NCBI RefSeq assembly: GCF_000003815.2
Contig: NC_049979.1
Span: 12,190,766-12,254,765, forward strand
Reading direction: 5' to 3'
DNA: 64,000 nt
DNA from: Branchiostoma floridae
Lineage: Eukaryota > Chordata > Leptocardii > Amphioxiformes > Branchiostomatidae
In this document: piece by piece, positions 12,424 to 62,000 of the stretch
Layout: each line of letters opens with the position of its first letter
Numbering within the stretch: position 1 is the stretch's first letter
Translations under genes and position numbers: made by a program
Notes under the pieces: model-generated
Seen by the model: the letters and a program-made list of their open reading frames with translations, nothing else
Databases searched by the model: none
What the model was told of the DNA's origin: nothing

Positions 12424-12429
12424 TTTATT
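12424..12429 (-). terminator. Polyadenylation signal for selenoprotein L
   Basis: TTTATT on the plus strand is AATAAA on the minus strand, about 715 nt after the stop codon. It lies beyond the candidate SECIS element, which would therefore be inside the 3' UTR. Confidence 0.5.
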
Positions 12430-12749: not shown

Positions 12750-12835
12750 GACCCCACACAGACCCGTCCAGCTGGCTCGGCTGACTCAGCAGTTTGTGAA
12801 GCAGCCTTCATTAACTGTGCAGAGGTGCAGCAGTG
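12750..12835 (-). ncRNA. Candidate SECIS element in the selenoprotein L 3' UTR
   Basis: Minus-strand RNA has an ATGA (plus 12808-12811), then AGGCTGCTTC, an apical loop with AAA (12793-12795), then GAGTCAGCC followed immediately by GA. GGCTG/CAGCC plus outer pairs form the upper helix. GCACAG upstream and CTGTGT downstream can form a lower helix. The ATGA-to-AAA distance of 12 nt fits the SECIS pattern. The quartet is imperfect, with one unpaired A after ATGA, so this is tentative. A covariance search of 12400-13143 would settle it. Confidence 0.3.
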
Positions 12836-13143
12836 GGGAAACGTCCCAACCAAACATCAACAGCCACTTCTATTAAACACAACAGCTGACACTTTTAAAC
12901 TTCCTGCCATATATTTGACGTGTCCACTGGCACCTGAAAAAGGTGTCCAAAGTCGAGCAGGAAAGCTGACATGAATTACTGTTACAGTACTCTACAACAG
13001 GTACAGTGTGGCCTGAAAGCCAAGACTAGCCAGAGCTTGGCTCACTTTTATGTCCATGAATTCATGAAGCTGGAAACATGATATGTTGGATATGTAACTA
13101 GTTGGAGGTTACTTTGGCTGCTGGGCAGGTTTGCTGACTATCT

Positions 13144-16100
13144 AAGTACCCTCTTCTTTTTTTACCCTCTTTGACATCGGTTCTCCCTTGCCTTGGTAGT
13201 CCTGGTAATGAAAAATGAAAGAAGTAAGAAAACCAGCAACACCACACCAAATTGTCTGCTGTATTATACTTTTTGTTACCGAAAGCTGCCCGACCGGGCC
13301 CAATTTTGGAAAGGTGACCATAGCATATTTAAGGACCTGGCTCTGCACATAAATCTGACAGGTGCAAGAGAAGATGAACAACTGTACCTTCAGCACACTG
13401 ATGATGGTTGACACCTCAGGCCTGTCGGTGGAGACCTTACTACAGTGGACCAGCAGTGCCTTACCCTGGGGATCGAAGATGAAGTCTCCTCCCATCTGTG
13501 AACAAACACACATTCAAGGACATGGAAATGTTTGATCCCTACAGACTGCATGGAAAACTTGTATAAGTTGGATTTTACATTGCAGCTGAGTGTGATGCCG
13601 AGTGATAAATTCAGTGCTTGGCTGATTTTCATATACTTGTAGACGTTTTTTAAGACGATGCAAGGATATGGCACAGTGTTGGAAGGTGGAGCTAATCCCT
13701 CCCCTTTCACCCCCTTTCACCTCTCCAAGTGAAGTCAGGTACCCATTTTGGTGAAAAGAAAGTCATGTGAAATTCTTTTCCCGAGAACACAATGTCTAGC
13801 CAGGAATGTCAGTAATCAGACCTGTGACCTCTCTTTCTCATGTCTGCTACCCTAGCCAGTTGGCCATTTGATGACACCAAAGGTTGACTTTGCTAATGAT
13901 AAAGTATCAGCGTATCACCTGATGGGGGTCGTCCTCCACATTCTCGTACTTCTTTGGCAGTGTCCGTCTTGCAGCCTTCTGTTCAGCATAGTAAGTTAGA
14001 GCAGCAACAGACCAGACCTATGGAGGGAGTTAAACATTCCCTGTGATGTGCTTGTGATGGTAACATTCTGTGGCAGCTGATCTTCAGCAGGCATAAACAG
14101 ATGCCTTATGTATCCCGCCAGGTACAAAGTATAAGATACACCAAAAAACAGTTACACAAGCTAATTGGATACGATTTGGAAATGGTCAGATGTTTCAGAT
14201 AGTATCCACTATCTTTCATTAGGGACACTGAAGAGATCTGGAAGAAACTGTTTTATTTTCTATACCCTAACTATGAATGCAAAAGACAATTTTGGATGTC
14301 CAATAGGAAACAAGGTTCATTGACATTGAACTAGAAGATAAAAGTCAAGACATGACATAAGAAGTCTCACCTTGGATACTGATCTCCCAAGGCCAAAGGC
14401 ACCATACAACTGAAAAAAAAACATCAATCCGGATTTCCATATGTCTATATGTCCTTCCGTCCAGTGTGTAAATCAAAACACGCTTTACTTACACAGCACA
14501 AAGTATACCAGTAAACAATCATTTACTTCTAGCTGTGGGTAGTTGGTGCTATCTAAACATTTACTTTTCCCTCCCCCATTCAAGATGCTACAGTTGGGAG
14601 TTGATGTCCATTATAATCATTGCACTCTTTATCCAGTCTGAACCATTTGCCAGTCATTATTCTGCAAAAGGTCTGACTGTTCAACCATTGAACGGCCAAT
14701 TGTATGCACTTACACATTTGAATAAAGTAAGTCCCAATAGCCCCAAAAACTACCCGATAATGATCGTAACGTCTGCCAACTTCTGCCACTCTAACTTCTG
14801 CCACTGCACCCCAATACTGAACAGTATTTATTTCAGGCTTAATGGAGTAGGATCTTGTTTTTGTCTTACTCTTCATCTCCTACCAAGAAAACCAGACTTA
14901 AGCCAGGGCTGGCAAAGAATTTGTTCAGCAGCCAAGGCAGTTCTTTGCGAGGACCTGAGCACTCCAGGGAGGAGTCTAGCTAGGCTGGCAACTCTCTCCC
15001 TGCATGACACCTCCCCGGAGTGCTCACTTAAGGTCCTCGGGAAGAACTGCCTTGGATGCCGAACAGATTCTCTGTCATCTCTGGCTTAAGTCTGGTTTCC
15101 AGGGTATTCATCTCCCATCTGTACCTTCCTGTCCTGATCCAGCAGCATGTCGTACGGACAGCTGGTGTCCTGTAACCAGCGCTGCGCACCTGCCTGGGAC
15201 CCGAAGGACACCACCATCACACGACCACCTGCAGCCTGGACCTCAGCCTGTATAGGGACACAGAGTTACTAACTAACACACGGCCGCCTGCAGCCTGGAC
15301 CTCAGCCTGTATAGGGACATGGACACGGAGTTACTAACTAACACACGGCCGCCTGCAGCCTGGACCTCAGCCTGTATAGGGACACGGAGTTACTAACTAA
15401 CACACGGCCGCCTGCAGCCTGGACCTCAGCCTGTATAGGGACACGGACACGGAGTTACTAACACACGACCGCCTGCAGCATGGACCTCAGCCTGTATAGG
15501 GACACGGACACGGAGTTACTAACAAACACACGACCACCTGCTCAGCTTGAGGAGGATGCAGACACACAAAGAGTTACTGACATACAAATAGGGAAACTTT
15601 GGAGGGGACATGAAGCCATTGATCCTGTGTATAGACAAGCTGCAGGCATTTGATTGCTGCAGGTATTTATATATTATCAAATTTTATAGATAAACAAAGA
15701 ACCCATCACACTCACTGGAGTGACCTTGTTTGCTCGGCTGAAAACCTGAGATATTCATCAGACATGATAAATTTGAGGCAAAAATTAAGAACACCTCTCT
15801 GCACTGATGTAGGTGCAATGTATGTGCAGTTCTACTTTGTATATCCCTAAAGCAAAGAGTTTCATCAGACATTACACACATTACCTAAAATTTGAAACAG
15901 CCCTACCTCTTGGGCCTTGATCTGGGCGATGTGGTCGCGTCACGGTAGTCAGGCAAAGTGTCGCAGTAACACCAGCACCAGGCACTGGGAACCCAGGTAG
16001 TCCTGCAGGCTCACTGATCTGGGAGGGCAGAATAGCACGTTCAAGGGAAAAGAATGTCATTTGAATCTGCACCTAAAATACACACAAGAATTATATTTGG

Positions 16101-17655
16101 CTTCCTGAATTGAGTAGAGTAACAGTGGGGTTCAAGCACCACCACTGCTCTGGACCTTTGGTCTAGCAGTGAAGGAGTTGGGTTAGTAAGCTGGCAGCAA
16201 AGCTTCCAATTCAACCATGAAGACTGTTTCTACTCATCTATGGTGTTTCATTATTGTTTGATGTCATACTGAAGAACAAAATGTCTTTGTTAGACACCAA
16301 AAATGTTCCTACCTCCCTGTTCTAGCATCTACCAGAGGAACATCCACCGGTCCCCTCGCCCCCACCCTGAGGTCCTCTCCTCCTGCCCTGTCTGCGTTTA
16401 ACTGTTTGTCCACATCCTGCAGGAAGGTGTCCCACTGATCCTGTGGGGAGGGGAGTGACCCAGTCTGTTATCACAATTCTTACTAAACAACCCCTCTCTA
16501 TATTATATCGTACATAAACTTTATTTCCTGCCAGTCTAACTGAAAGGACCACCCTGTCATTTCTTATGATGAATGAACAAATTAATCTATGCTGGTTTCT
16601 TACACAGACTCCTGGGCGAGATGCTCCTGAAGGGGGCTTTACCCAGTAATGTATAGAAATAGAAATATAAAAGTAGCACAGACTCTAGATTACTGTACCA
16701 ACAATCAACAATAATCAATAACCTGTATCTCACCTCCACCTCCCACAGGTCTTCTACTGCTGACTGCACAGATGGGTACCTGTCAATCAAGAGTGTAACC
16801 ATAGTGACAAGGGTGTCACATGAAACCTCTAACATCAGTAGCATACATGTAACTCATCATCATCATATCAAGGTCAAAGTAGGATGACCTCTAATGTAAT
16901 GCACTGGTTTTTGACATCTGATAGTGCAACAGGGCTTAAATGCTCATATTTCTCACCAAGCACAATGGACCATCCCTGCTATTGCTCGATATTAAGAAGG
17001 CGACAGTGGTCGTTTGAAAATTTAATTCTTGTGTACTTTTGTGTTGGACGAAAGTTTAGCTTTGTTCTATGATTACTACCAACACAGGTGAGCTTGCATG
17101 ATTATTTATCTGTTAGATTCTTCAAGGTGCAGTGGCTACCCCAAACACATAATCACCATTAACCAAACGCTGTGACTGTACCGGTATATCAAGGGCCAGG
17201 TGGTCCTTATATAGAGATGATCACTAGTACAAGTTTGACTCTATTGATTTTGACCAAATATCATCAGTCGCAACTCACCTGTACAGATGTTCCCATAGTC
17301 TCTCAGCCTCCAGCCTTGTCTTCACACATAATCTGCAGGTACAAAATGACATCCTAGTTCATAAATGTAGAGCAAATAATGGAGTATGTTTATAGAGAGA
17401 TACGATTTCAACTGTGCTGTGACTACAATTTTCAAGTCAAACAAGATATTTGGCATCAAAATATCAAAAACATAGCACATCCAGGTCAAAAGATACAAAA
17501 ACTGGAAGTTCTGCTGCAGTACGCAGGTCACATATAAGGGGGCCAAAATTGACCTTGATGTTTGTCTTTCAAGTCCCTAACTACTTATAAAATCATTACA
17601 ACCCATCCAGAGGTTCTAAAGTTATGTTGACCACAAATATCAGGAAACACAAACA

Positions 17656-17691
<36 letters not shown>

Positions 17692-19582
17692 AAAACAATA
17701 TCTCATTTTTTTCTGGAGATAACCATGAAAGTGACCTGGTGTAGAAGTTGTGGTAGATTCCGATCAGACCCCCCAAACATCCCACCCTGCTGTCCATGAA
17801 ATCATCCAGAGACCCTGTGGCGGGATGGAATGGGAAAGAAATGTGTTTGGAATTATCAAGACAAACTTTTTATACCTTCACCTTAGGCAGGCTGGATATA
17901 ATGGCAAGTAAATGTAACATAAGGTAAGCTCAATAGATTTTGTAATGAATCATGACACTAGTAACCTGGTCCAGGTATGCAAACCTCGTCTGTCCATATA
18001 TAACAGACCAGGTTTGTACTGAAGATTACATACTGCGTATTGATTTTTTTCATCCATTCACACCAGGATGCAGTTTGTTTGAGGGTGTTCTAAACACCTG
18101 TTTGTGTTTGAGGGTGTTCCAAACACCTATTTGTTTGAGGGTGTTCCAAACACCTTTTGGCAGGTGTTCCAAACACCTGCTGCCTGGAGGATGTTCCAAG
18201 CACCTGTTTGTTTGAGAGTGTTCCAAACACCTGTTTGCTAGCAGTTGATCCAAACATCTGTTTCTTGCAGGACGTTTCAAACACCTGTTTCCTTGAGGGT
18301 GTTCCAAACACCTGTTTGTTGGCAGGTGTTCCAAACACTTGTTTCCTTGAAGAATGAACGTGTTCTTAACATCTGTTTGTCTGAGGGTGTTTTAACATGT
18401 TTGTTGGCAGATGTTCCAAACACCTGTTTGTAGGCAGATGTTCCAAACACCTGTTTGTTGGCAGGTGTTCAAAACACCTGTTTGTTGGCAGGTGTTCAAA
18501 CACCTGCTGCTTGGAGGATGTTCCAAACGCCTGTTTCCTTGAGGGTGTCCAAACACCTGCTTGAATACTTTGAGTGCTACATTAATTTCAAGGATCGTCT
18601 AGAGACGAACTAGGACACAATGATTACTATTTGTGAAGCGTAGGCTTTTTTTTAAAGGGACATAATGTAAAATGTAAAGTTACTGTTTTCGGCCATTTTT
18701 CTACATTATGAGTTGGGTCTACCTTATTACACTGCATGGCAATATTTACAACGTATTGATACGACTTTGTTGTGAGGTGAGGACGTCTTGAAATATGCGC
18801 ACTTCCCTCCGCCGCTTGAGTTGTCCACCATTTTATCCAACTCTCCAACGAACCAAAGTGCGCTTTAGAACGTGTTCGGTGGTTCGCTCGAATCGTTACT
18901 GAAGTTTGTTGAAAGTCCCCGCTAAGCTCCGAAGATCTGCGACCGCAACGGTCGATTCGGAAATCTACGGTCGGCTTACTTCCGGTAGGCTACCCGGAAG
19001 TAAGTGAATTTGGTCGCGGCTAACTTTGGCTTTGTTAATTAGCGCTAGAAATGTCATAAAATGACGCAGATATGTTGGAAATAAGTTACAAAAGTCAATC
19101 TGACTGGTGATTTTTAAGTTCAGAACATTTGAAATTTTGGCGCCAAATTTCTACATTATGTCCCTTTAAAGAGCCCTATGAAGATTGAGTCAGGTTTTAA
19201 GGAGAGTTGCTTCACCCCTCAAGCCTATCCTGACTGACACAAACAGTTATGCAAGACATAACGGTTAACTGTTAACAGTTACTCAAACAACGGGATAGAT
19301 TTTGTAAATCGTCAGACGTTTCAGGTAGCATCCACTACGTTTCGTCCTTGACTGAACAATCGCTGTAACGTTAGTTGTAGTAACTGCTATCTTGTGTTAC
19401 TTGTGTAACATTATATTATTTCCTGGATGTCTCAACCTTCATCGACTACACCTGTTACTGTTAGTTTACTCACCTTTCACGAAGTTCCTGGCTCTCTCCA
19501 AGAGTTCCTCCATCTCCGACACGGTCTTGGAGACATTGTCAACAAGAGACGTTGGACTGGAAGCTACAGCTTCCTTGTCCAT
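13144..19582 (-). CDS. Selenoprotein L (thioredoxin/peroxiredoxin-like fold, UxxU motif)
   Basis: Complete gene, 11 exons on the minus strand: 19474-19582 (ATG at 19580-19582), 17736-17814, 17279-17332, 16734-16779, 16313-16440, 15907-16018, 15125-15247, 14371-14409, 13919-14017, 13388-13495, 13144-13203 (TAG at 13144-13146). All phases match; 957 nt make 318 residues plus stop. Residues 1-139 are an alpha-helical N-terminal region. Then comes a thioredoxin-like strand VLVLLRHFA followed by TGA-Leu-Pro-TGA and RDHIAQIKAQE, so the redox motif is Sec162-x-x-Sec165. Later VMVVSFGSQ, LYGAFGL and GGDFIFDPQG fit the AhpC/TSA-like (PRXL2/SelU) superfamily. A UxxU motif in this fold is the hallmark of selenoprotein L, described from aquatic organisms and shown to form a diselenide. 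The only stops in frame are these two TGAs. A decayed gene is the alternative, but less likely. Confidence 0.85.
14887..15100. mobile_element. Fold-back MITE in selenoprotein L intron
   Basis: Terminal inverted repeats ACCAGACTTAAGCCAG (14891-14906) and CTGGCTTAAGTCTGGT (15081-15096). Further inward, complementary segments such as AAGGCAGTTCTT/AAGAACTGCCTT and AGGACCTGAGCACTCC/GGAGTGCTCACTTAAGG make the element almost a full hairpin. There is no coding capacity. Confidence 0.7.
15218..15540. repeat. Tandem repeat made from a duplicated splice acceptor
   Basis: About five copies of a 59-66 bp unit. Each contains GCCTGCAGCCTGGACCTCAG/CCTGTATAGG, which on the minus strand is a copy of the acceptor CCTATACAG plus the first ~25 coding nucleotides of the selenoprotein L exon at 15125-15247, followed by a GGACACGGAGTTACTAAC spacer. 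The true exon is the downstream-most copy on the minus strand. Confidence 0.85.
15907..16018 (-). CDS. Selenoprotein L redox exon with two in-frame TGA (Sec) codons
   Basis: The exon enters with one nucleotide completing AG/A (Arg) and leaves in phase 0 at GAG/GTAGGG. TGA codons lie at plus positions 15949-15951 and 15940-15942, separated by CTA CCG. The context RHF-A-U-L-P-U-R aligns with the RHFxCxxC motif of the cysteine homologues. Every other exon of the gene is free of stops. Reading either flanking frame instead breaks the homology on one side. Confidence 0.85.
17656..17690. repeat. (AC)n microsatellite
   Basis: Uninterrupted CA dinucleotide run in a selenoprotein L intron. Confidence 0.95.
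18065..18565. repeat. Minisatellite, about 28-34 bp unit, in selenoprotein L intron 1
   Basis: About 15 to 16 imperfect copies built on GTTCCAAACACCTGTTTG followed by variable spacers (TTGAGGGT or TTGGCAGGT). It reads open in several frames on both strands, which explains the short ORFs here. It is not coding. Confidence 0.9.
18651..19170. mobile_element. 520-bp inverted-repeat element in selenoprotein L intron 1
   Basis: The ends are TTTAAAGGGACATAATGTA (18651-18669) and its reverse complement TACATTATGTCCCTTTAAA (19152-19170). The interior has no ORF, so this looks like a non-autonomous DNA transposon. Confidence 0.75.
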
Positions 19583-28200: not shown

Positions 28201-31200
28201 GTTTTTCATTTCTAGCAGTTAATCAAGTTGGGTGGCTTTAATCTTGCAACAAACATATTACTAAGTTCAAACAGATAAACTCACAGCAGACAAAGCTATC
28301 TTCATAAGCAACTTATTGATTAATAAACATTTCAACGTAATGTAAGAAAAGAACAAAGCGTGAGGTAAAAAAAATACAAGGTGAGAGTTGTAAACATCAT
28401 CCTATCTCTATCTCTTCCTTTTAACTGACAAACGTAGTCCAGAAGTTGTCTTTCAATACACCTCAATAAAATTCTCAAATAGAGGGTTATTCCTATATAT
28501 TAATATACTAGAAAAACACTTAGTGAGACTAAATACATGCTAGCTAAAAAGGTGCAATTTGTATTAACATTTGAACAAATAAATATAAAACAAGAGCATA
28601 GAAAATGTTATTGGTATAAAGGGGTCAGGGGCTTAAAACTGCTCTTGACTGTACCTCCCACTCTTTTTTATCTGAATAGGAAACTTTCTATAGTGTCACA
28701 GTCTTGACATTAGTCTGTAGAAAGGCAAAGCAAACCAGGTATACACAATGATCATTTACTGGCATCTGCACGGAAGAGTTGCCATGTCTGGCTTCTCTAT
28801 AAATAGAGACATACGGTACCTCAGAATTTTGATAATCAGGTCTCTCACATGTCAAGACATCTGGAGTAATACGTTTCACATCTTGTAAAGAAGATGGTTC
28901 AAACTTCAAAGAAGTACCCTTTAATACCTGAATGGTTATAAAACTTTTAAAAGGAATCACTTTGATACTCAGCTGCTACAATGAATGATGGCTTTTTCCA
29001 ACATACCACTTTCACAAGTTATGATTGTATTGTGTTCAACATTGCTTTTGCACAAGTTTTAAACTAAATTAACATCATCAGATGTCAACAAACTATCATA
29101 TCAATGATACTACTGATTACCAGAGGACTGTAGCCTGACTTGTGGTATTCTAGTGTGTGCTGCCTTCACTATAGTGACACATGCATGGCCATATAGGGCC
29201 TCATGCATTTGTCCCACAGGCTTGAGTGTCATGGCTTCTGGATCATGGCACAAAACCTGGCCATCTGGGGAGCGTCCGAACAGTCCAGAGCCAAGGCCAC
29301 CATAGATGTAAACTTTCCCGTTACTGACAGTCATTCCACATCTGGGTAGAAGATAACCTGTGATGGCTACAACACTCCAGCAACCCCCGTTTTCACCAGG
29401 GCTGTAAGAGAACAACTTGTTGGGTAGCCCAGCCACATAGATGGCCCCATTGAGAACTGCAGTAGTGATGTCAGCAGCTCTTTCAGGCATGTTGCTCTGC
29501 GGTTCCCACTGGATTTTCCAAGGGCTAAGGCGGTACACTGTAGATGTATCTCTGTTCTCAGCATCTCGTCCACCCATCACATATCGCCCATTCCTCGTTA
29601 AAGGGGCAAATTGCTGTCGCACATAAGCAGCGGGCCACAGTTTTCTTTAAAGACACAATGACTACGTATTTTGCCCTTTTCCGTTACAAGTACATGATTG
29701 TAATATGCTAAGCAATGTTTTCCCACCATTGTTAGTTGCCTTTTGGTCGTCCGGGGTAAGGTTTTGCTTAGAAACACGCTAAAAACACGTGTCGGAAATG
29801 CTATAAAGGTGAATATCGTGGCATTCTGATAATGAAAAGACGTTAGTTCTTTAAATTTTCAGTCATAATTTACATCAACCACTTAGGCCGGCTTGTCACG
29901 TGTTGATGAACTTGTCCAGCAGACGACCTTTTTACGTCAGATGCCGTTTTATTCTTGTCGCCAACTTTTGTATAATTTACGTTACCGAACTTCTGTTGGG
30001 TGTAATTCGCTTACGAAAAGACATTTTCCGATAATTTTTTCACTGTTTTATCTGCTAAACAGTGGTGTTGCGTAACAAACAAATGACAGAACACATAAAA
30101 CACGAATGTTGGAAACATGACTATAACCGCCAATCTCAGGCCGTTTGTCACTTTTTTGATATAATTTACGTTACCATAATAAGTCCCTTAGAATTATAGA
30201 AAGATCATTACTTAGGTACTCATAGGAAAGAATGCTCCCAGATAAGTAATTGCCTGCAGAGTTAATCTTTCCAGAGCTGTTTGTTAAAATTTTATTTATC
30301 ATTAAAAGCATAAATATAATTTACGTTACCATATAATTTACGTTACCATTTTTTTTCTTCAACATGTCATCGGATGTTCAGCAAGAGCACATCAACCAAA
30401 GACGTATTATCTGCTGTAATGTTACTGTAGGTGGGCTTGGCTTGCCATAGAGTCACAATGCAGTCTGTTTATATGTTCCTGTTTCAGTGAATTTTACGAT
30501 GCTGGGACTTTTCATTTCTCATAGGAATGTAGAAATACGAGGGGCGAGTAAGAACAGAAAGAAACAACACCCCGACTCCCGGGATTCGAACCCGCGCCGA
30601 ACCCGGGCAGCCGGATCACAAATCGAACGTGCAAACCGTTCGGCCAAAAGGCTTAAGCCATTAGGCGTCTTCGGTTTAGCAGTCCTTGAACACCACTGTT
30701 ACACTACTCCCCCTTTTCTTTTCAAGATTCGTCCTCGAATCTCCGAGATCGACATCCCTGTGTGGCACATACTAGCCTGTTACTCACAGGGCCGGCGTGG
30801 GAACCATTGTAGAAATTCAGAGGGGCGAGTAAGAACAGAAATAAACAACATCCCGACTCGATCCCGGGATTCGAACCCGCGCCGAACTCGGGCAGCCGGA
30901 TCACAAATCCAACGTGCTAACCACAACACCAAAAGCTCAAGAGCTGTTGGCGTGGTCAGTTTGGCAGCGCTAGAACCCCACTACAGGAACGATGTTCAAA
31001 TGATAAACCTGACATGCACCAACTTGGAAAGATGCGGGTGTTTATATTGATATCTGATGCTTCAATAATCAACATTACACGGAATGTATAGTACCAAGTT
31101 GAATAAATGTATATTGGGTTGGACTGAACCAAAATAAACCCCTGTTGTCAAAGTAGACTCGTCATTTTCGCGCGCTTTTTGAAGATCACACGACTGGAAT

Positions 31201-34200
31201 GACAGAAATTCATGCTCAACACTGACTGATGAAGTAAGGTACGTTTCAAGCATGTTTGTCTTAAATAGCAACAGAGATTATGATCAGCTAATTATGAAGG
31301 TCAATGTAGTCAAGATTCGTGTCACAGAAATATTTCTCGTTTTACACAGTGGACCCCTTTATATAAACGTACAGACGGCGGTAAATCAGCGACACTATTT
31401 ACGCTAGCGCCACGTTATCTACATTGAGGACTTGTCATTGAGTTATAAGCTCCATGATCAAAAGCATATGGGCTGCAGAAGTTAATAGCTAACTTAAGTT
31501 AAGACTTCACTATCATTAGATGTTCCGAAGTTTTCACCATTGCTTGTTTAGGTTGGAAATCTTCTTAATTAGAAGCAAACTACTCTTTCAACCAGTCGTG
31601 ACTGCACAGAATTGATGCACAGAATTGTTTTACATGGACAGACACATGGTTCAAGGCAGAAAGCTATTTGTGAAACCAATCCCACTCTATAAAGTCAAGA
31701 TCTATATAACGTCAGGCGTGTCATGTAATCATGTGGCATTAGTATAAAGGGACAGGCTGCCAGGATAACTGTAGAACAGAATGCCTTTACACATGCTCTT
31801 TTACTATTACTCTNNNNNNNNNNNNNNNNNNNNNNNNNNNNNNNNNNNNNNNNNNNNNNNNNNNNNNNNNNNNNNNNNNNNNNNNNNNNNNNNNNNNNNN
31901 NNNNNNNNNNNNNNNNNNNNNNNNNNNNNNNNNNNNNNNNNNNNNNNNNNNNNNNNNNNNCAGGCGTTATGACACCATGTACACCGAGGAACAGGTGGGT
32001 CATTAACGTTATTATCATATAGCCTTCCGAAACTTTCAAACTCCGGTATGACGCATAGATCTCTTGGTACTCTACGTGTGAATTCCTTTATCGAATTTCT
32101 GAAAATTCACATTTGTTCTTTGGTACGTGCATATGTAAGGAGATTACACACTGCATTTTGAAACCAAAAATTTCCACAGAAAATATCCGAAACATTGCGG
32201 GCTTTTTAGAACGAACAAAACTCATTATCAATGTTAGAAGGAGCCATCCCCCTTACAGTCTGTACTTATTCCCTCTGCTCTGGTATTTGTTTCGCTCCTT
32301 TTTATTGGTCAATGCCTGCATATATCTTACTTTCTTGTGTGTATCGCTATTTTTGATTGGTCAAAATGAATCGCACCGGTGTCGATTCATTCTGACCAAT
32401 CAGAGGAGCGAAACCCACCTGCCTGGCCTGGATCTTTGTGTTACGGCGTCATAACCAACGTGGAACGGGGCCTTCTGATTGGTCCGCGGCGCCTGGCTAT
32501 ATGATAATGTTGTTTATAGCCTTGCTCATCACCAAAAGCCTTGTTATACACATATTACACAGTTCTTTCTGCCGGTATTATTAAACCACACGATAGAAGG
32601 TGTATGGATGGACATTTTGTTAGGTAGCACATTCATTCTATATTGATGTGACATTGTGTTTGTTCCACGAACAAAGATTGTCCTGACATTAAAAAATGTT
32701 TTATAAGAAGTGCGATAACTGTTGTTTAGTTTGTTGTCTTTCCAATATCGAAAGCTTGTGCTAGAAAGGCCCAGTCCATCTGGTGCATGTTGCCATCGCA
32801 TCATGTCCTGCTATTCCCAAAGACTTAATCAAAGGACGCGAGGACGAAGCGGTTCTGACCTAGAGCGTGTGATTGCGTGAATCCTTTGTTACGTAGCATG
32901 TATTCAAATAGACCCCGCCAAGATAGAGACCTTGCATATCTTGGGTGTCTTTCCGCAGAGTCCGGGTGGGTACAGGACGAACAAGATTATACGGGTATTC
33001 CGGATAACAAAAATACACTTTTTTGCTACTCTGAGTTAGCAACATGAAGATAAGAGGTCCAGCATTATAGACGAACATGACCTGATCAGTTCAAATAGAG
33101 CCAGTATGTACACTATTCGGCTTTCCTCCAAATGTTAGAGATTCTGTAATTTACGTTACCACAGTTCATTGGCATTTACCTGTAGAATAGATATCGCCTG
33201 CTTCCAACCATTTTCATAAATATATTCTATCGCTCTTTTCCCATCCTACAGGGTGAAAATTAAGGAGTATTAAACGGTTTGTCTTCATATCAGAAAAAAA
33301 TATATCATTTATTTACTTTTATACAAATGTAGCAAACTTAATAGCTAGTAAATTTGATGATTATTCCGAAACAAATGACACGGCGGTTAAATATTTCTCA
33401 TTGGCGTGCAATTTGAAGGTTTTGGGTTGGAAAATTCGCTAATTTGGCTGTTGTTAATCCACTATTACTTGCTGGAACATTTCTCTGTGTAGTAATATGC
33501 TCTTTATTACGAAATTGTTGGAAAGATGACATGGCCTACTAAAAATCAAATATCTCCAAAATTAAGCGTGTTAGCACCAGACAAAAATAGCAAAAGATAG
33601 TCGATATAAGTGGTAACAAGTTCATACCAGCAGGTAAGCGTTTTGGACAACTTTATTTTTTACAATTTTTTACCTCCAATTTTCCCAGTTAATGAGGAAT
33701 GGGCGATATATGCTGCCATTTACCACTGCAACAGCATGCTTGTACCTTGGCTGAGGGAGTGGAACACATTCAGTCCACTTGTTCTGGCAACGGTCATACA
33801 CTTCTACAGCAGCCAAAACAGACTTTAGGCCACTTGCATTCACACGGTCGTCTAGGCCACCAATTGCATACACTTTATCATGTACCACTGCCAGCTTGTG
33901 ATGGTTCCGGGGAACATTCAATGGAGCAAGTTGGGACCAGAGATTGAGTTCCAGCTGGTATAGCCACACTTCCCTGTTGGAACTATCACCAGCACACACA
34001 AAGATGTCATTAGAGCCTAGTACAGCCACAGCAAATCCCCGGTCATAGCTATGCTTCATTTTGGTGATAGGAACCCAACTTGAGCTGCAAGGCATCATAA
34101 GATAGTTTGAGAACTCCACACTGTCTTGCCCCTGCCCTAAGATCCCTCCAACAACAACTACTGCCTCCTTCAGATCACGCGGACGAGTGCGAGGTGACTG

Positions 34201-35671
34201 AACATTCTCTGGGAACAGCTGGTACTTGAGTGTTTCTGCCACGATGTCCGGGCAAGACTTGCGCACAGCCTCATTGCTCTGTACATTGTCCAAGAAGTAC
34301 ATCTTGTCCATGAGGGGGAACCTGACCAGTTCCATCAGCTCTCTCATCTCCTTCTGCCGTTTACTGGTGTTGTGATTGATCCAAGTCATCACAGCCATGT
34401 ACACAGTTTCTTCCTGTGCATTCAGGTCATCTGATGAGATGATTGTGATGAGTTCGTCTTTTGTCAGGTTAAGAAACTCCTGCCTTTTGCTGATTGCCGT
34501 GAACTCTTTCATTACACACGACAAAGCCTTCTCATACAGCTCTGGGGATAGCATACTGCCCATGCACATCATTTCCAAACAGTTTTTGACACTCAAGTGC
34601 TCAGATATGAACTTTGCACATGCATCAAACACGGGGTGGATCTGAAAGAAGTTGGCCGCTTCCAGCAGGTTCACAGCATTGCCTTCTGTGATGGTGACTT
34701 TTGATGTGTACGCATAGTCAACAATAAGCTGCAGTGTATTCGGGCCAACTCCATTGATGTCCACCTTATGTGCCTTGCTTTCACGATGACCATAACAGAA
34801 CATTCCTTGAAAGTATCCACTGCAAGCAGAAAGGACAGGCCTGTGGCAGGGAATCTCTTTTCCAGAAACACACAGCACGACGTCAACCAGTAGACTCTCC
34901 GACCGTAGATCCTGCAGGCCATAGAGGAGGGAGGCTGCGTGTTGATTGTGGCAGAAGTCAAACGATGCTTGTGATGTCTGCCCTGTTGCCATTGTGCCCT
35001 GGATCCTGCAATATCATAAAAATTTCACCAGTGTAAATTCAGGTGACTAGATCATTCACAAGAGCACTTTCTGTATACCTGATATTGTGCAAACTTTAGG
35101 TTCTTTTTCTGTACAGCATCTAACATTGCATTCTACATTCTATGTTATTGCCTGGGTACCATCTGATTACTACTGGAACTCCTTAGACAGAGTAACAATA
35201 ACCAAGGACGTTATTTCATATGCAACAACAAGGTAATTAGGAGCTCAAGACAATCTTGAGAAGGTCTCTAGAACAATGTTCTAAATATGTGGCTATATCA
35301 TGGCACCTGGTATGGTGGAATTTGTATTGTTGATGTTAATGCGGCCGTTACAATTACTTTCTGTGGAAAACAGAATTTTTACATCCTCTTCTGATGTATG
35401 GATGTGCATGTAACGTTATAATAAAAACAAGTGACCGTAGGTAACATAGTCTGTGACGTCGGTTTGGTATTTTGTTGGTTGTTATGTTCTTTTTGCTTGT
35501 TGTTTGCTTATATTCTTGATGTATTTAATCATGGTGTTAAATAGATGGTATATGTAATTTTGCTTGTGATGTCTGTGTATGAAGCAGGTTGACTGAAAGC
35601 TATGTTGTTTGGCGATCCTCTTTACTGAGGTTGACCATGATGCACGTAGCTTTCTTTTGGGGCAGGTGATG

Positions 35672-38700: not shown

Positions 38701-41700
38701 AGGAATGTTCGAAATCAACTAATAGGGGTAATGCATGAATGGGTGATACAAAATTATCATTATTTAGTTATTTTTCAATTAGGCATAAAATGCGATGATA
38801 CAGTAATATGAAAAGAGTATAAGGAATTCATGTGAATTAGAAGTCACGTTATCATTGAATTTTGAGGTAAGAAAGAAAAACATATTTTCCCTCATTGTGG
38901 AATAGGCAGATGGTAGGAAAGTCGTGACACCTCTTTTTAATATTTCATCAAAAGCAATTCAATGGGGTCACCTCTTTGATGCATCGTGGGGTAGCAAATA
39001 TATCGTTCCGAGTATCTATTTCCGATGTATGTTTTGATATCAGTTTTGCATCACGGTCTTCAACCAAAGTCATTTAAAGGCCCTTTATTTATATTTATTT
39101 ATATAGTATCTCATAATAGACCGCCCTGGTGTAAACAATTATTATTGTCTAATGGTGGATTTCATGAGGGTCTCACTATATAGACTAACGTTTTTGTCCT
39201 TACTGGTCTAAGTTCCGATTACGTTTGATGACGAGAGACATGCAAACCTGTCTTCTAACCAGCTATAACGAAAGGGTATGGCACCCTTACGAAAGGGGTG
39301 CGTAAGCACGTCAACCGATGATAATGATGATGATGTCGATAATGATGATGATGATGATGAACGTTTCATACTGACAGGCTACAGAGGAGTTCTTCCGGTC
39401 CATCCGCACGGCCGCGGGAGACGCCCAGTTCGCCAACTTTCTGAACCTGAACACGGGCAGCACGCTGTGTTTCGTCATCGACACCACGCTCAGCATGGAG
39501 GACGACATCGCCGCGTCCAAGGATCGGGCAATCGAGATCATCAGCAGCCGGCTGGGCTCGCCCACAGCCCCGTCCAACTTCATCCTCGTGCCCTTCAGTG
39601 ATCCACGTGAGTAGGCGGGCGGGCATTATAAGGGCATGAAACTGTTTGTAAGGAGGTTGTATATTGCTAAACTATGACGTGTGTGATCCAACACACATAC
39701 ACAGACACAGACACACACACACAGACACATACACACACGCGCGCGCGCGCGCACGCACGTACACACACATCGGATACCCTTTTGTTACCAAGCATTACAT
39801 AAAAATGCATAACCCGATGCATTACTAGTATATGCTGCATTATATGCTGCTCATGAGCGACCTCATGTGTCATCATCATGCGGTAATACGTAAGTTTACG
39901 TGGGCTTTGGTGCTCTCCTCTTGGTGAGGGGAGAATGGCAGCCCCGGCCGCGCGCGCGGTTAATTATACTAAGATGAAGCTCAGGCTAGTTCAAGAACCC
40001 AATGCTGTATTTTCCGCAGACGTGGGCCCGGCCGTGGTGACGAACGATCCCGAAGAGTTTGAGACAGCCATCGGGAACCTGCAGGCATCGGGAGGGGGCG
40101 ACGCTCCTGAGTACTCCCTGAGCGCCCTGCAGATCGCCCTGGCCAGGAGCCTGCCCGGATCCACCGTCTTCGTCTTCACGGACGCCGGGGCCAAGGACGC
40201 CGGGCTGGTGGAGTCGGTAACGTCACTGGGCATACAGAAGAACATCAAGGTGCGTTTGAATGTTCCTTTGAACTAGCAATTTTTAATTAACGTTCCTAGT
40301 CCAAACATGATACATGTATTAAGAACTGTGTAGTAGCCTTGTCAGCAAAACTGCCGAGCTCAAACTTCTGTGTGGAGAATGGTGAATTGAAAGCCAGTCT
40401 ATTCACAGTATCTTTCTAATTAAAAAAACACGTCTTTTTCTGCGTCGTTGCCTTTTGTAAGGAAGTCAGTTATTGTTCTTTGGGAGAAAAAAATGCAACA
40501 CAAAGGGAAATATTGACATTTTAGGTGAGCCATATTTAAAAACATAAAAACGCGTTAAGAGCGTTCAAATAAATAAAAAATATTCTAACCTACTTGTTTC
40601 AAAAATATTTTAGTGATAGACAAAACCGTTGGGACATTCAAACGGATCCGATTTTTTAAAACACCCTAACCCCGTGTTGTGTCTTCAGGTCACCTTCTTC
40701 TTGTCGGGCTCTGTCGGCCAGAGAAGGCGGAGACGGTCGGACAGGCCCAGAGCCCCGCGGGAGGCCGGAGACAGAGACACCTACCTCTCCATAGCACAGG
40801 CTACAGGTGGGTGCCGCGGAACAGGAACACCTGTTCACCTGTTCTGGTCATCCCCTCGCTGTTATGTCGGTGTTTTCTTCTTCCTCTAAATACGGCATAC
40901 AGCTGGATGTCGACAAGCATGTATTTGTGTGTCCTGGTCGACACGCGGTATTTATACCCGGTAGTAACAAGGCAGCCTTGTGGTACTCTCCAAGCAGATC
41001 GAGGTTCGTCATTGCTGTTTTAGACTTGTCTCAGGTGTTTTTGTCGGGCTTTTTATATTGTATCGGATATCGTTTTTTATATACAGGAAGGCATATATAA
41101 AGAAAGTAGAAAGCCGGATAAAAGCCGGATAAAAACGCCTAAAAACACGTCAGAAAAAAACCCGAGCCGAACCTCTGCTTGGAGGGTAGGTGATACCAGC
41201 GAACGTTCCGATCTTAGTTCCTTTATTCTCGTTCCCAGGCGGCCAGGTGCTGGACATCACCAAGTCGGAGGTGTTCGAGACCACCAAGCTGGTGGACCTC
41301 GTGGTGACGTCAGCAGAGGTAAGGGGTCATGAATGGGCAGATCCCCCCAAATATACATAAAATGTATATTCCTAATATATATTCCTACAGAGATGAGACC
41401 TCAAGCGATCTATTTGCTTGAAGAAATAGCACACGACTTAGTACCCTTTAAATATTATCCTGTCATCGACAATAAAAGCATCGCATGTTTAGTGCTTATA
41501 TGTATCTTTAATCCACGCACTGTACGTTACCACTTACCCACTCACTAACTCGCTTGTTTACTCACTCATTCACTCACACAATGACACACACTCGCTCACA
41601 CTCACTCACTTTTCCACTCATACATTAATATTCATGCACTCACTCGCTCATTCACTCACTTGGCACGTACTCGTTCACTCACTCACTCACTCACTCACTG

Positions 41701-44700
41701 AACTCTTTGTCATAGGTCAACATCCTGCAGATCCGAGACGCCCCGGCTGGGACGGGAGATCACGTGATTCCATTGGACCTGACTATGAGTGACGTCATCA
41801 TCCAGGTGACAGGACAAGGTGCCGAACTGCAGGTGCTCGATCCAACAGGTGCGTCATCTTTCTATTAAAACACTCCGGTCGCTGTATGTGCGCTACGGCC
41901 ACATTCCCAACGTCGGAGCCTAACAGGGCAGCTTTCCGGATCAAAAAGTATGATATAACAACAAACAAAAGACACAGGGACGTAAAGAAATTAGTAGTCA
42001 TGAGAATATTTTTTGTATATTAATGTTACTTCATAAACACTTTTATTTTTCGTATTCGCAAACAACCCGGCTCCTGGCTCCAAGTCGACTCGAAAAACGC
42101 GTGTGTAAACCCAACCCAGCCATACTTACACTCACTCGTTGCTCGTTGCCATTCCTTCAGGTGTTCTCCAAGCGACAGGTGAGAACGCCACCGTCAGCGT
42201 GGAGGTCCAGCTGAGCGACGTGCTGGTGGTGCGCGTGCGTGACGTCACGCCGGGGCTGTGGCACGTCGTGGTCCTCTCAGACGTGACCTATGACCTGCGC
42301 GTCACGGCGCAGAGCAGCGTGGACTTCTTGTACGCCTTCGTGGACCGGACGGCGAACGACACCGAACACCCGGGCGTGTGTGACGTGGACGGGAGACCTG
42401 TGTCAGGTACGGGCCCGGTCACATCGGTCGTGCGATTGTCGTACGATCGTTGCACAATCGCAAACTAACTAAGGGAACGTGCACTTGTCGTTCAGGACCG
42501 TTCAGCTGTCTTGTTACTGAAAAAGGCTGTCTCAGATAACTGTCGGTGGTGTCACAGACTACTGGAAAATCCGACGTCAAAGTCCTACGACGACCTGCAA
42601 CCTTCTTGCTGCAAAGAACGTGCACGTGGTGGCGCTTTAAGAGACAGATTCATGATACTGATCACAAGAGAAGTGGCATCCTTGACCATTTATGTCTATT
42701 GGCCGAGAAATCCATCAGATGCATGGCCTGCTCAAATTTGTCCCTCCGACGAGAAACAAAACACAGGAAATTGGTTTATGATCAAATTACTTTACTTGTT
42801 ACTTGTTAAGGTCTCCTCCTGTGGAGTGGCCTGCATCAAGGATTTTCCGTCTCCTGCGAACCATCCGTCGCCATTCCAGGCGGTTCTGGGCCATCTTTTC
42901 TACGTCATTCAGTTTCAGGTTGTTGTTTCCGGTGGTTAGTCTGGTATCCTCGAGGGCAGTGTTGAGCCATGTCTTCCTCGGTCTCCCTCTGGACCTTTTA
43001 CCAAAGTTCGGGTTCCAGTCCAAGAGGAATCTGGGCAACCTCTCTTTAGGCATCCTCAAGACGTGACCCAGCCACCTGAGTCTGCTGGCTGCTACAAGAG
43101 CTTCAATGTTCGTTGTTTCTGTCTGTTGAAATACACTTATGTTGGAGATATGATGAAACCATCGAACACGTAAGATCCTTCTAAGACAGCGCTGATGGAA
43201 CACTTCTAACCTGCTCATTTGTGCCTTGGTAGTGACCCATACTTCACTCCCATAAGTCAGAATAGTTAGTACTGCTGCCTCGTAGATCCTGATTTTTGTT
43301 GAGAGGAGAATGCTGCTATTGTTCCATATTTTACCAAGTTGGGAAAAAGCCCCGGAAGCTTTCTGAATGCGCAATGAAAGTTCAGTGTCCATTTTCCCAT
43401 CACTGCTAAACGTCGTTCCCAGGTAAGTGAAGGTGCTGACTTGCTCAGCTGGGCATCCTTCAACAGTTACACTGAGCGTTCCTTCCTCAGTGTATGGTCG
43501 TTGAGTGGTGTGCTTGCCAACTGCCATAACTTGGGTCTTCTTGGCATTGGCCTTGAGGCCAGCAAGGGAGCTGTTCTTGCATAGCAAGTCAGTTGTTTCC
43601 TGTAAACCCGGCTTTGTGTTGTCTAGTAGGGCCATGTCGTCAGCATAATCTGTGTCCAATACTGAAACAGCCGGCTGTCCAGGAGTCTCCTGTAGTAGCA
43701 CTGCACCTGTGCTGAGCCGTTTCCTCTGTTCAGTAAGGTAAGCTGCCAGATTAATGCAGACATTGAAAACTGGAGGGCCTTGTATGTCACCCTGACCAGT
43801 ACCAGATTCGACATTAAACCAGCTTGACTGCTCCCCATTCACTCTTACGGCGCTCACAGTATTGTAGAAAAAGGCTTGCAGGACTCTGATGTACTTCATA
43901 GGCAGCCCGTAAAAGGAGAAAGCTTTCCAGATGAATTGCCTTTTGATGCTGTCAAATGCGGCCTTAAAGTCAATGAAGTTTATATACAAGGGGATGTTGA
44001 ACTCAATACTCTTATGGATGATTGTCTGTAGGGAGTAAATCTGATCGATGCAAGATCTGTTCTTCCTGAAGCCACATTGATTTTCCCTTAGTAATCTTTC
44101 CAACCCCAGGTTGATGCGTTCCAGGATGATGATCTGAAAGAGTTTTGATGCTGTCGATCGGAGTGTTATTCCCCTGTTGTTGCCGCAGTATGTAGTATCC
44201 CCCTTCTTGGGTAGCACAATGATGATGCCTTTGGACCAGTCCTCGGGAATGGCTTCACCAAACCAAACCTTGGCAAACAGAACCTCCAGAGCTTTGATTA
44301 GTCCTGACGCACCGTACTTCAACTGTCCATTGGCTATCCCATCTACTCCAGGAGATTTGTGGTTCTTCAATTTCTTAAGAGCATTCTGAATCTCAATAGT
44401 TGTTGGAGGGCCATCATCTTCTCCCAGGTACGCAAAGCTGGGAACACCTGGTATCCTGTCCAGCTCAGCTAGGTCAGAGTCTTCCTGCTGCGGGTTGAGT
44501 AGCTCAGAGAAATGTTCAGCCCACCTTTCCCGCTGAGCATCAGGATCGGAAATCAGTTTTCCGGACTTGTCCCTAACTGCTGAAGACTTCTTGCTTCTCT
44601 TGTTTGACAGGATCCGAATCTTCTGCCAGACTTCTCTCTGGTTTCCCTGCTTTGCTGCACTTTCTAGATCTGATGCTACCCTGAGAGCCCAGTTATTGTC

Positions 44701-56020: not shown

Positions 56021-59000
56021 ATGGCCGTCACAATGTTTCCTGCTCCTCCATTGGGTGAAGGTTCCCACAGCGCGTGGCTGCTCGACCGGCTTTACACCTT
56101 CCGGAGCCAGGGTTTCCAGTGTGACACCACCGTGGTGACAGAGGACGGGATGAGGTCTGTACTACTAAAGTTGTAAACACTCAATCACTCAGTCATAGCC
56201 TGGTATCCAGCCGTAATATAGCTCCCGAGTCTCTTCTCTCCTCTTGGCGTGCACAGCCCATCATTGACAGTGACTTCGGACCTATATTACGGCTAGATAC
56301 CAGGCTACTCAGTCACTCAGTCACTCACTCCCTCGCTCGCTCGCTCAGGCGCTCACTCACTCACTCACTCACTCACTCACTCACTCACTCACTCACTCAC
56401 TCACTCACTCACTCACTCACTCACTCACTCACTCACTCACTCACTCACTCACATTCACTCACTCACTGACAGTCACTCACTCACTCGCCCACTCACTCAC
56501 TCACTCACTCATTCGATCACTCTCTCACTCACTTACTTACTCGCTCACTCTCTAAGTCACTCAATCCCTCACTTGTTCACTCACTCACTATCACTTGCTT
56601 GCTCGCTCAGCAATATCACAATGTCCGTATTTTGTCGTTCATATAGAATGTGGAGTACAAATGATTCTATCAAAACTGTTCATTTGGTAAAAATTAATAC
56701 AAATCAACGTTAATTATTTCTTCCTTTGCTGCCACATGACAAGGTTCGACGCCCACAAGGTGATCCTGGCGTCATGCAGCGCCTGGTTCCTTGGCAGGTT
56801 CGTTTGTCTGTTTGTCTGTTTGTTTGTTTGTTTGTTTGTTTTTTTGTTTTTTTGTTTGCTTGCTTGTTTTGCATGACCGGTAAACCACATTTAGGCACAA
56901 CACAGCAGTTTTGTACAGTACGTTACAGATGCGTAAGAACTGTAAGGTTTGATACACACTCCGGGACGGCCTTGTAGGCAGTAGTAGCCCTACTTTTCCC
57001 GATAAGCGTGGAATATTTTAACATGCTCGAGCTGTGGCTCTCCTAAAGCACGGGGCCTACTGCTTTTCGTCCCATCCGAGGGACATCTCTAACCGAAGAT
57101 CAGTAACAAGCGTAAAGTATTTACACATATACAGTGATTGTTTTCTGAGATGGTCCCAACCGAACATAAAGCATGGGTTGTGAAAAAAAGAGTCTCTTTA
57201 GGCATACGTCTAAACCTTGGCCGGCTGGGCAGCTTTTGGGAACGAAAAGTATGATATAACGTTAAAATACACATAATACATAAGACATAAAGAGAATAGC
57301 CATGGGCATCATTTGTGCATATGCGTACGTATTCATTTCTATGTTTTGTTTCCACAAACGGCCCGACCGGCCCCCGATTTGGAAATGAGAAGTTAGCCCT
57401 AGTCAATGACGTACCAAACTGATGAACCTACTCCCGCACCCCAGGTTCTGTCTGGTGACGGAGCGGGAGACCCTAATCCCCGTGCCCTGGTCATACTTCG
57501 CCGTGGTGCTGGAGTACGCCTACGCCAGGTGATTTTCTGTTACCTAACCTCTGCTTGGAAAGTAAGTTTATCATGCGTATTTGAACAAAAAGTCGGTGTT
57601 AATAAACCCTCACACACCCCGCCCCTAACCCTAGGACTTTCGCGGTTCCCGAGACCCAGAGGCAGGGGATGGTCGAGGTCGCGAAGGCGCTGAGAATGAG
57701 AGAGCTTCTCCAGCTTCTAGAGCAAGGTCAGATGACTTTTTTTTAATGATACGTAAGAATCTTGGAAATCAGTTGAATAACTGAAGGGGGAACCATAAAG
57801 TTGAAAAAAAAATTAAATAGATAAAAATATAGAATATGATGGAGTCTTACCGTTTCACTACAATAGATTGCACACCAATATTACAAAAATCTTTGCGGAT
57901 TCTGATAGTACATGTACTTTAGTGAGTGCTAGCTGTTGTCATTATGGGAAGAAGTTATATGTGTGTATAATATCTGTAAATGTATACCTTTTAAGCAACA
58001 ATTATCATCAAAAAGCGCAATTTCGACAATGGCTTATTCAACATAGCAACACGACGGGACAAAGTTGCATTGCACTAAAGTTGTGGAACATATTCAACAT
58101 TATTCTGTGAAGCCGTTGCTTTCAATTTGGGCACCATTATCATTGAATATCATAATTATCCTTTTGACGAAATATTTAAACCATTTCTCAAATCAAAGTT
58201 TTCTACTTGGGAGCTTTCGAGACGCAGCCTGTCCCTTTTTTTCAACGCGGTAGATCTGGTCGATCTTGGAGTCAGTCTTTTGAGTCGAATCCCGGGTGGG
58301 TCTGGAATTTTGCAAGCTTCTGGAGTCTTTTCAAGACCCTGACCTTATGGGGACAAACTTTGACGTAATCTAAAGCGAGACATTGAAGGAAGTTAAGCTG
58401 CTGTGGTGTTGTCATAGTTATCATTATTATCATGTCCTAAATATTCAGGTCATGGCGACGCGAGCGTGCCTCAACAAGACCAACTGTTCCTCGTCACCCG
58501 CACGAGTGACGAGGCTCTGAAATCCCTCCGCGCGCTGTTCGAGACGGGCGCTCTGTGCGACATCCTGCTCCACTCTGCCAGCGAGGAGGACAGGATCAGC
58601 ATCCCGGTCCACCGAGTCATCCTGGCCGCCTGCGTCGACTTCTTCGCTAAGAAACTCCCGCGGAGCAAAGCTAAAGGCTGGATAGTGAACGGCGTTCCCG
58701 ACAAGCGCCTGAAGCCGTTTCTGGCGTACCTGTACACGGGCGAGTTCGACATATCCTCCCCGGCGGAGTGGAAGGAGGTGGCGATGTTTGCCACTTACCT
58801 CGGTTGCACTACCCTTGTCGGTCATTGTTGCAGGTGTTTTTTTATATTCTTTCTCTTTGTCAAAAAGTATTGTTCAGATTTGAACAGTGAACCAATGTTT
58901 AAATATGTCGCCTTTTAGGCTTAGGCCACATTTAAAAAAGGGGGCCCGGCCGGGCAGCTTTCGGGAGCGAAAAAAACGATATGATAAACATCAAAATACA

Positions 59001-62000
59001 CAAAATGTCAAAATAAGATTCAAGGGCATAATTTGTGTACTTTTCTTGGTATACAATTTGATTTTTCTTTTCTTAAAACATCTCGGCTGGGCCCCAGCTT
59101 GGAAATGTGACCCAGGCCTTACCTACTCGTTGTATATAGTAAATACCCTTGCATTTCAGCCTTAACTATAAATCTTGTTCTTTTGAATAATAATTTTTTT
59201 TTGTGCAAAATCATGCCTGAAGGCTAGTATACACGGAAAGGAAAAATGATAAGGTATAGTATACAACAATGAACTAATAATAACGTGACATGAGAGTCAA
59301 CTACCGCCACTGTTGATCTAAAAACGGTGTTTATTGGGTTTGATTCCTTTACAATAAACCAGTCCACGTTATTCTACTCAGGTTTGTGGAAAAACACGTG
59401 AGGCTGGAGAACATAGTTCACGCCTTCAGGTTCGCCAGGCAGACGGGCTCGCTGGCCCTGACCCAGGCGGTGCACGCGGTGCTGGGCCGCCCGGACGTCT
59501 TCCGCAGCTTCGTGGACTCCGAGGTGTTCCTGGACCTGGACGCGGACGAGATCGCGGAGATCCTGCAGGAAGACACGCTGGCCGCGTTCTCGGAAGAGAC
59601 TTTGTTCGACGTGGCGCTGCGATGGATCTTGTGGGAGAGTGAAAACAGGTATGGTATGGTACTTTCATTATCTATGTAATCATGATGAGTTGTCAGTGTT
59701 CCCCATTTCAAGTGATTCAAGTTGCTATATTGTACTTTTCAATGTATATATTTTTCCATATGATGAAATAAGTTGTTGATATCGATTGTAATTTCTAACG
59801 TTATGCGTTTTACGTATGATAAAGTAAGGACTTCAGGAAGAATATTATGCATATTNNNNNNNNNNNNNNNNNNNNNNNNNNNNNNNNNNNNNNNNNNNNN
59901 NNNNNNNNNNNNNNNNNNNNNNNNNNNNNNNNNNNNNNNNNNNNNNNNNNNNNNNNNNNNNNNNNNNNNNNNNNNNNNNNNNNNNNNNNNNNNNNNNNNN
60001 NNNNNNNNNNNNNNNNNNNNNNNNNNNNNNNNNNNNNNNNNNNNNNNNNNNNNNNNNNNNNNNNNNNNNNNNNNNNNNNNNNNNNNNNNNNNNNNNNNNN
60101 NNNNNNNNNNNNNNNNNNNNNNNNNNNNNNNNNNNNNNNNNNNNNNNNNNNNNNNNNNNNNNNNNNNNNNNNNNNNNNNNNNNNNNNNNNNNNNNNNNNN
60201 NNNNNNNNNNNNNNNNNNNNNNNNNNNNNNNNNNNNNNNNNNNNNNNNNNNNNNNNNNNNNNNNNNNNGACATGCTATGCTCATATTTTGGTGACAGAAG
60301 TTGTGTAGGTTTTGGCCCCATAGCAGCTTACTCTGGAGCTGCAGGGGCATTTTCTGTCTCACATTGCTTGTGCACGGTACCACTGTGCATTACATTTATA
60401 TGTATCCTTCAATTAGAAAAAAAAAGTAAGGCAACGGTAGGCCCATGGATATCCTTCTTATGGTCGTAAGGATAGTGTGTTGTTATCCACTGTGTTTAGG
60501 GCACGGAATTGAGGGGCGAAGCCCAGCCCTCTCCTTCCACTTTTTACCTCCCTAACCGAAGTCAAAAGCCCATTTTACACTTGGATGGGGTGAGGAAAGA
60601 CGTGAAAAGTGCATTTCATTTTCAAAAGAGCACAAGATTGTTTATTAGCATGACAGGATTTGAACCTAGGGTTTTGAGCCAACCAACCTGCAGGTGCGCT
60701 ACACCATCACACGTGTTTACCTTTTGTTTTTGTATCTGACAATAAAAACAACAGACAGACGTGGGTCCGCTGCGCCGCGGAGTCGCTGGTGGTGCTGGGT
60801 GGCTGCTGCCTGACACCCGAGGCTCTGGTGGCGGACACCGTCCTCTCCGCGGAGGTCACGACTCTCCGGCACAACCAAGACAAGTGGACAGGCCTGACAA
60901 AGATGCCTCTATCGGGAGTATACGGCAGTAAGGTTTGTACCTCGATCTCTGAGCCTCTTCTACAGCAATAGTTCCTTCGTATCCCCCAGTAATATAATGG
61001 GCGGTGTTCATTTTAAATTCAGTCAATATCGATTGTTACTTTAATCGTGGCTACATCTATATAAGAGATTTTCATCATTTTAGGCATGTAGGTATCTTTG
61101 GCAAAGATGTAAACAATGACCATATTATGCAAATGAGTACTTAATTTGCATAATTAATGAGGAGCTGGTATCATTGCATTGTTTTACATAACTGAACTGC
61201 AATAAATGTAACACATGTACTTAATGACAGAGGGGACATAAACTGATACCAAACAATCTATTTCGTGGAGGTATGAGGTCGCCGAACTCTTGTTAATGGT
61301 TTTATATAACTGACGACGCAAAACATGTTTCATGTCACATGCCGTGCCAATCAATAATAAATGTGATGAATCTGAATCTAAGGTCCGAGGGCTGCAGTAC
61401 GCCTCCGTGGCCGTTCTGGACAACTTCCTGTACGTCGCCGGCGGGTTCCACGACTCGGGCGACTGCGGAGACCACGTGGACTGCACCGACGCCGTCATGC
61501 GGTTCGACCCGAGAATCTGCGTGTGGCACCGAGTCTGCGACATGCTGTCGCCGCGGCGGCACTTCCAGCTCGTGGCCGTCAATAAGTACCTGTACGCCCT
61601 CGGCGGAACGGTCTTCAGAGACCCCTACACGTCTGTAGAGAGGTATGTGACAATTTGACACTTTACATTTCTAAGTCTAGCGGCTATACAGGCTAGAGAT
61701 GTAACAATATCGAGCCGGATGGTTTACTCTTGTATGGATCGTTGTTTAGTCAATGATGTCTGCTGTACCTTATATACTATTCAGGTCTATGCAATGGGAT
61801 AGCTGAAAGAAAAAGACGCACATATCAGAAAAAGGTGACGATTATCCCTACCAACCTCTGCTTGGAGAGTAACGCCATCGATCCTATCTGTTGCCAGGTA
61901 CGCCCCGAGTCAGCGATGCTGGCAGCACGTCTCGCCGCTGATGGAGGACCCCGATGCCTTCGCGGCCGTCTCCCTGGCCGGCTGGCTGATGATCTCCGGC

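Follow-up and report, generated by a model that had tools for sequence, protein, structure and literature searches.

The window analysed here, i.e. a stretch of 64,000 nucleotides of the Branchiostoma floridae genome (contig NC_049979.1, positions 12,190,766 to 12,254,765; window positions are used throughout), contains on its minus strand a gene with 11 coding exons, running from 19582 to 13142. The gene was rebuilt by script, with exon borders set from the sequence alone, and its coding elements are as follows:

19474..19582, minus strand, coding exon 1, with the ATG start at 19582-19580
17736..17814, minus strand, coding exon 2
17279..17332, minus strand, coding exon 3
16734..16779, minus strand, coding exon 4
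16313..16440, minus strand, coding exon 5
15907..16018, minus strand, coding exon 6, with both putative selenocysteine (Sec) codons (RHFAULPURDH)
15949..15951, minus strand, TGA, putative Sec codon 162
15940..15942, minus strand, TGA, putative Sec codon 165
15125..15247, minus strand, coding exon 7
14371..14409, minus strand, coding exon 8
13919..14017, minus strand, coding exon 9
13388..13495, minus strand, coding exon 10, with the segment GGDFIFDPQG and the place matched by the NF040769 profile
13142..13201, minus strand, coding exon 11, with the terminal stop TAG at 13144-13142

All ten introns have GT-AG borders and all phases close, giving a spliced coding sequence of 957 nt, that is, 318 codons followed by TAG. 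Two internal stops are present in it, both of them TGA, at codons 162 and 165, three codons apart, and in the protein they lie in the context LLRHFA-U-LP-U-RDHIAQ, a UxxU motif. The preliminary description of this locus had proposed the same exon, frame, motif and number of codons, along with closing phases and an absence of stops in the other ten exons, and the rebuilt model agrees with it on each of these points, the two TGAs being the sole internal stops. Exon 6 is bordered by AG and GT and is 112 nt long (112 mod 3 = 1). A second frame of this exon is free of stops, yet it is out of phase with the neighbouring exons, in line with the earlier statement that no other frame joins both of them. 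The nucleotide pattern MGNCAYTTYGSNTGAN6TGAMG was matched once in the window, at exon 6, and in none of 100 dinucleotide shuffles.

Other coding pieces were observed elsewhere in the window. Pieces of KLHL type, with BTB, BACK and Kelch domains, are found in two parts of it (33673-35013 and 29113-29646 on the minus strand, and 58418-58915 plus 61314-61655 on the plus strand). On the plus strand, within 39887-42465, a von Willebrand A domain is encoded at 39887-40273 and a hemicentin galactose-binding-like domain at 42109-42465, and the two perhaps come from one gene.

Several repeats are located within the gene. A tandem array at 15218-15541, with units of 59-65 nt, repeats the splice acceptor and the first part of exon 7; of its five acceptors the last alone (15247) leads into an open exon, and reading from the four upstream ones stops after 21-32 codons. 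These four are possible decoy acceptors ahead of a selenoprotein exon. An inverted repeat (14881-15106) in the intron that separates exon 7 from exon 8 has 76-nt arms with 84% complementarity and a further pair of 21 nt inside, and looks like a foldback or MITE element; intron 1 holds a minisatellite (18073-18563) with 27 nt units and a higher-order unit of 81 nt. When the gene region was compared with Rfam, none of the matches other than the one described below reached its gathering score, and the strongest of them was MIR868 (43.5 bits versus 200, E 4.2e-06); four of these matches fall on the inverted repeat and two on the minisatellite, and were discarded as repeats, the rest being taken as chance.

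Downstream of the terminal stop, two further elements were identified:

12755..12819, minus strand, SECIS candidate in the 3' UTR, from Rfam SECIS_1 and a pattern scan, with its AUGA core at 12811-12808
12424..12429, minus strand, candidate AATAAA poly(A) signal, downstream of the SECIS candidate

The candidate SECIS is situated about 320 bases past the stop, upstream of AATAAA, and shows the canonical features, namely an AUGA core, an apical loop containing AAA, and GA on its 3' side. At gathering thresholds Rfam gave no match in the whole window. With a permissive threshold SECIS_1 reached 20.4 bits, below its gathering score of 35, with an E of 3.9 over the 8.3 kb scanned, and within the 742-base 3' UTR it was the sole match with E up to 1 among 4227 Rfam families, with an E of 0.35 at this sub-gathering score. 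In a scan of both strands of the window with a SECIS pattern that was designed after the candidate had been seen, 12819-12755 was the best of four candidates, and 6 of 2000 UTR shuffles scored as well under this same pattern. The hairpin energy of the candidate is ordinary (z 0.23, with 106 of 200 shuffles as good). A weaker, second SECIS-like pattern (13766-13717, minus strand) lies in the intron before exon 10 and is probably due to chance.

The genome (513,431,437 bases in 431 contigs) was searched with the tRNA-Sec model, which gave 12 matches, four of them above the gathering score. ARAGORN, run on six of these loci, classified three as tRNA-Sec with anticodon TCA and three as tRNA-Ser; the three tRNA-Sec genes (L061, L062 and L063) are on three different contigs. 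The same genome was searched with the NCBIfam profile NF040769 (SelL-related redox protein, SelL_rel_redox) at E <= 0.001, exon by exon and thus with low sensitivity, and with three candidates scored. One place was found, exon 10 (E 3.3e-4), and no second copy of the gene was reported by this weak search. A search for the GFP family, intended as an amphioxus marker, returned nothing in this genome, with two candidates scored and no hit in any control, and carries no weight in either direction. PMC3419175 gives 19 chromosomes for B. floridae; of the cloning primers printed there, the two for BfMT1 match exactly on contig C4, about 1.7 kb apart, and neither of those for BfMT2 occurs, with up to 2 mismatches, in the 19 kb around BfMT1, although that paper describes the two genes as linked. 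As it also reports the same cDNA sequences from B. lanceolatum, the primers make the genus firm and the species B. floridae very likely.

The protein, with X at both Sec positions, was compared with family profiles. It scored 130.8 bits on NF040769, over the curated cut-off of 120, and matched Pfam AhpC-TSA_2 (1.1e-15) and AhpC-TSA. No family match was obtained in the Pfam and NCBIfam searches, at the thresholds used, for residues 1 to about 130; residues from about 130 to 300 form a peroxiredoxin-like domain of thioredoxin type. As a control, a piece of prostamide/prostaglandin F synthase taken from the PDB sequence alignment, which we take to be of PRXL2B type, was run on NF040769 and scored 45.9 bits. 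A prostamide/prostaglandin F synthase was also the best PDB sequence match of the amphioxus protein (E 0.0026), and the control chain matched the amphioxus protein only with E 0.0044.

Prokaryote genomes were scanned with the pattern RHF(G/A)UxxURxH, and 51 loci were obtained; UxxU being demanded by the scan, its outcome shows the existence of the motif, not its frequency. With tblastn, 15 of these loci were recognised as relatives with both TGAs in the same places (E from 4e-25 to 2.4e-15). Among the other 36, 34 were without a match up to E 10, the remaining two matched at E 1.7 and 7.2, and all 36 were taken as chance because the best E among them was 1.7. To judge from their record titles, the relatives belong mostly to Chloroflexi, SAR202 or Dehalococcoidia (13 of the 15), with one from Bacillota and one from Acidobacteria. 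One of them, L008, from a Dehalococcoidia bacterium, is identical to the amphioxus gene in all 11 residues of RHFAULPURDH; its record names ALOHA, presumably the ocean station. Twelve of the 15 relatives were included in the alignment (A1), from which three were left out, namely L007 because it is cut short, L022 because of unknown residues and L038 because its frame is shorter at the 3' end, and L007, with its frame cut short, was likewise omitted from the count of invariant columns. In their catalytic domain, motif and GGDF segment, the SelL-related bacterial proteins of NF040769, including the UxxU forms of Chloroflexi, SAR202 and Dehalococcoidia, resemble the amphioxus protein. However, RHF is preceded by 157 open residues in the amphioxus gene and by no more than 82 in any of the 15 bacterial UxxU frames, so that the bacterial proteins would lack most of the N-terminal part; their genes are also uninterrupted frames, unlike the 11-exon amphioxus gene. 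PMC2398784 describes, from ocean microbial sequences, a Prx-like 2 family with UxxU forms.

A profile search that was free of the motif was carried out in 148 genomes of the same class as the genome of L008 (G001). Matches were present in 94 of them, and in 14 a locus was over the family cut-off, with UxxU in three cases, UxxC in six, UxxS in one and CxxC in four. A follow-up tblastn at 1e-3 left 11 of 31 loci without a match, none of which was over the family cut-off. In the control genomes no locus passed this cut-off in the profile searches; no plasmid was matched by tblastn at E 1e-5, and in a scan of viral contigs seven stretches fitted a pattern, none of them a relative. The mixture of UxxU, UxxC and CxxC in the 14 profile-found loci indicates that the amphioxus TGAs occupy Cys/Sec positions of the relatives, and that both are redox positions where Sec and Cys replace one another.

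The structure predicted for the bacterial L008 protein, with Sec modelled as Cys, has a pLDDT of 88.9 and a pTM of 0.86. Strand 36-41 is followed by a turn and helix 48-59, and motif residues 47 and 50 fall in this turn and in the opening part of the helix, presumably the place that such a motif takes in thioredoxin folds. In the Prx-like domain of the amphioxus protein the UxxU would accordingly stand immediately before and at the beginning of the first helix that follows the central strand. Taking the sequence together with what is established for Sec decoding in eukaryotes, the ribosome would read UGA 162 and UGA 165 as selenocysteine by means of tRNA-Sec and one SECIS in the 3' UTR, and the UxxU domain would then perform thioredoxin-fold catalysis. 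According to PMC2397514, SelL has a diselenide bond and is present in fish, invertebrates and marine bacteria. By analogy, the amphioxus protein is most likely a thiol or peroxide oxidoreductase whose two selenocysteines alternate between a diselenide and a pair of selenols. PMC3316567 states that a single SECIS serves the insertion of both Sec residues of SelL.

The gene is almost certainly the amphioxus selenoprotein L (SelL/SELENOL), with UGA 162 and UGA 165 presumably read as Sec through tRNA-Sec and the one SECIS candidate, and both in-frame TGAs are very probably real selenocysteine codons. The same had been advanced in the preliminary description, as two Sec codons in a SelL-like UxxU, and this reading is supported by the SelL-related profile, the structure of the gene, the bacterial relatives with both TGAs, the candidate SECIS, sub-threshold in Rfam, and the tRNA-Sec genes. 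These data also bear on whether the locus might be a pseudogene, derived from a CxxC gene of PRXL2-like or SelL-like type in which the two cysteine codons decayed to TGA. A single-base change, from TGT or TGC, is enough to produce each of them, and the SECIS score is sub-threshold; but no damage is seen in the other ten exons, whose phases close and whose introns are bordered by GT and AG; the decay would need to have struck precisely at both redox positions; TGA stands at these two places in bacterial relatives too; the 3' UTR has a SECIS candidate and the genome has tRNA-Sec genes; and no second copy was reported in the genome, as far as the exon-by-exon search with three scored candidates goes. 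The pseudogene reading was therefore rejected as extremely improbable. Much the same can be said of exon skipping or ordinary termination at TGA, with a non-selenoprotein as the main product. Nothing was found in its favour apart from the second stop-free frame of exon 6, which is out of phase with the neighbours, and skipping would shift the frame, since the 112 nt that would be lost are not a multiple of three; with the frame broken in this way, we discarded the skipping of exon 6 and give this explanation hardly any credence.

There is also the matter of the family to which this selenoprotein belongs. PRXL2 belongs to Pfam AhpC-TSA_2, and PRXL2A, PRXL2B and PRXL2C constitute the SelU family, which is not known to have more than one Sec. 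SelL is a relative of PRXL2/SelU, and the AhpC-TSA_2 domain is common to both, so it does not discriminate between them. A PRXL2 (SelU) paralogue that gained a second Sec independently would share this Pfam family, as the amphioxus protein does, and could have prostamide/prostaglandin F synthase as its top PDB match, here with E 0.0026; against it stand the SelL-related profile, passed by the amphioxus protein and missed by far by the synthase fragment, and the 11 active-site residues identical to those of a bacterial UxxU protein. We thus rejected membership in PRXL2, and consider such a paralogue very unlikely. The protein was not found to be closer to PRXL2 than to SelL, in a comparison made with the PRXL2B-type fragment alone, and given 130.8 bits versus 45.9 for that fragment SelL is a more fitting assignment for the gene than PRXL2-type. 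The preliminary description had placed the TGAs at the cysteines of a PRXL2-type motif; the positions hold, with Cys or Sec there in relatives, whereas the family label is better replaced by SelL.

The SelL family is already known in B. floridae, and genes of this kind have been described before: Table 1 of PMC3473315 lists one SelL for this species (2012) and the paper gives the family two Sec. Like the selenoprotein L of fish, invertebrates and marine bacteria, the amphioxus protein has UxxU in a Prx-like domain together with one 3' UTR SECIS, in this case a candidate, and no difference from SelL as published was found. Amphioxus SELENOW shares the presence of two Sec in one UxxU motif, according to PMC7539508 and PMC3473315, but it is a member of another family (SelW). 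Since a chordate and the Dehalococcoidia bacterium L008 share 11 identical active-site residues, the two-Sec gene could have passed from marine bacteria to animals, or in the opposite direction, with both Sec codons kept and the bacterial-type SECIS swapped for one in the 3' UTR, although we regard such a transfer as unlikely.

The amphioxus SelL gene does not open a new kind of biology. Genetically encoded diselenide motifs occur in few protein families, SelL among them, and the gene model and SECIS candidate described here can be used to correct the annotation and to study this family at the base of the chordates.
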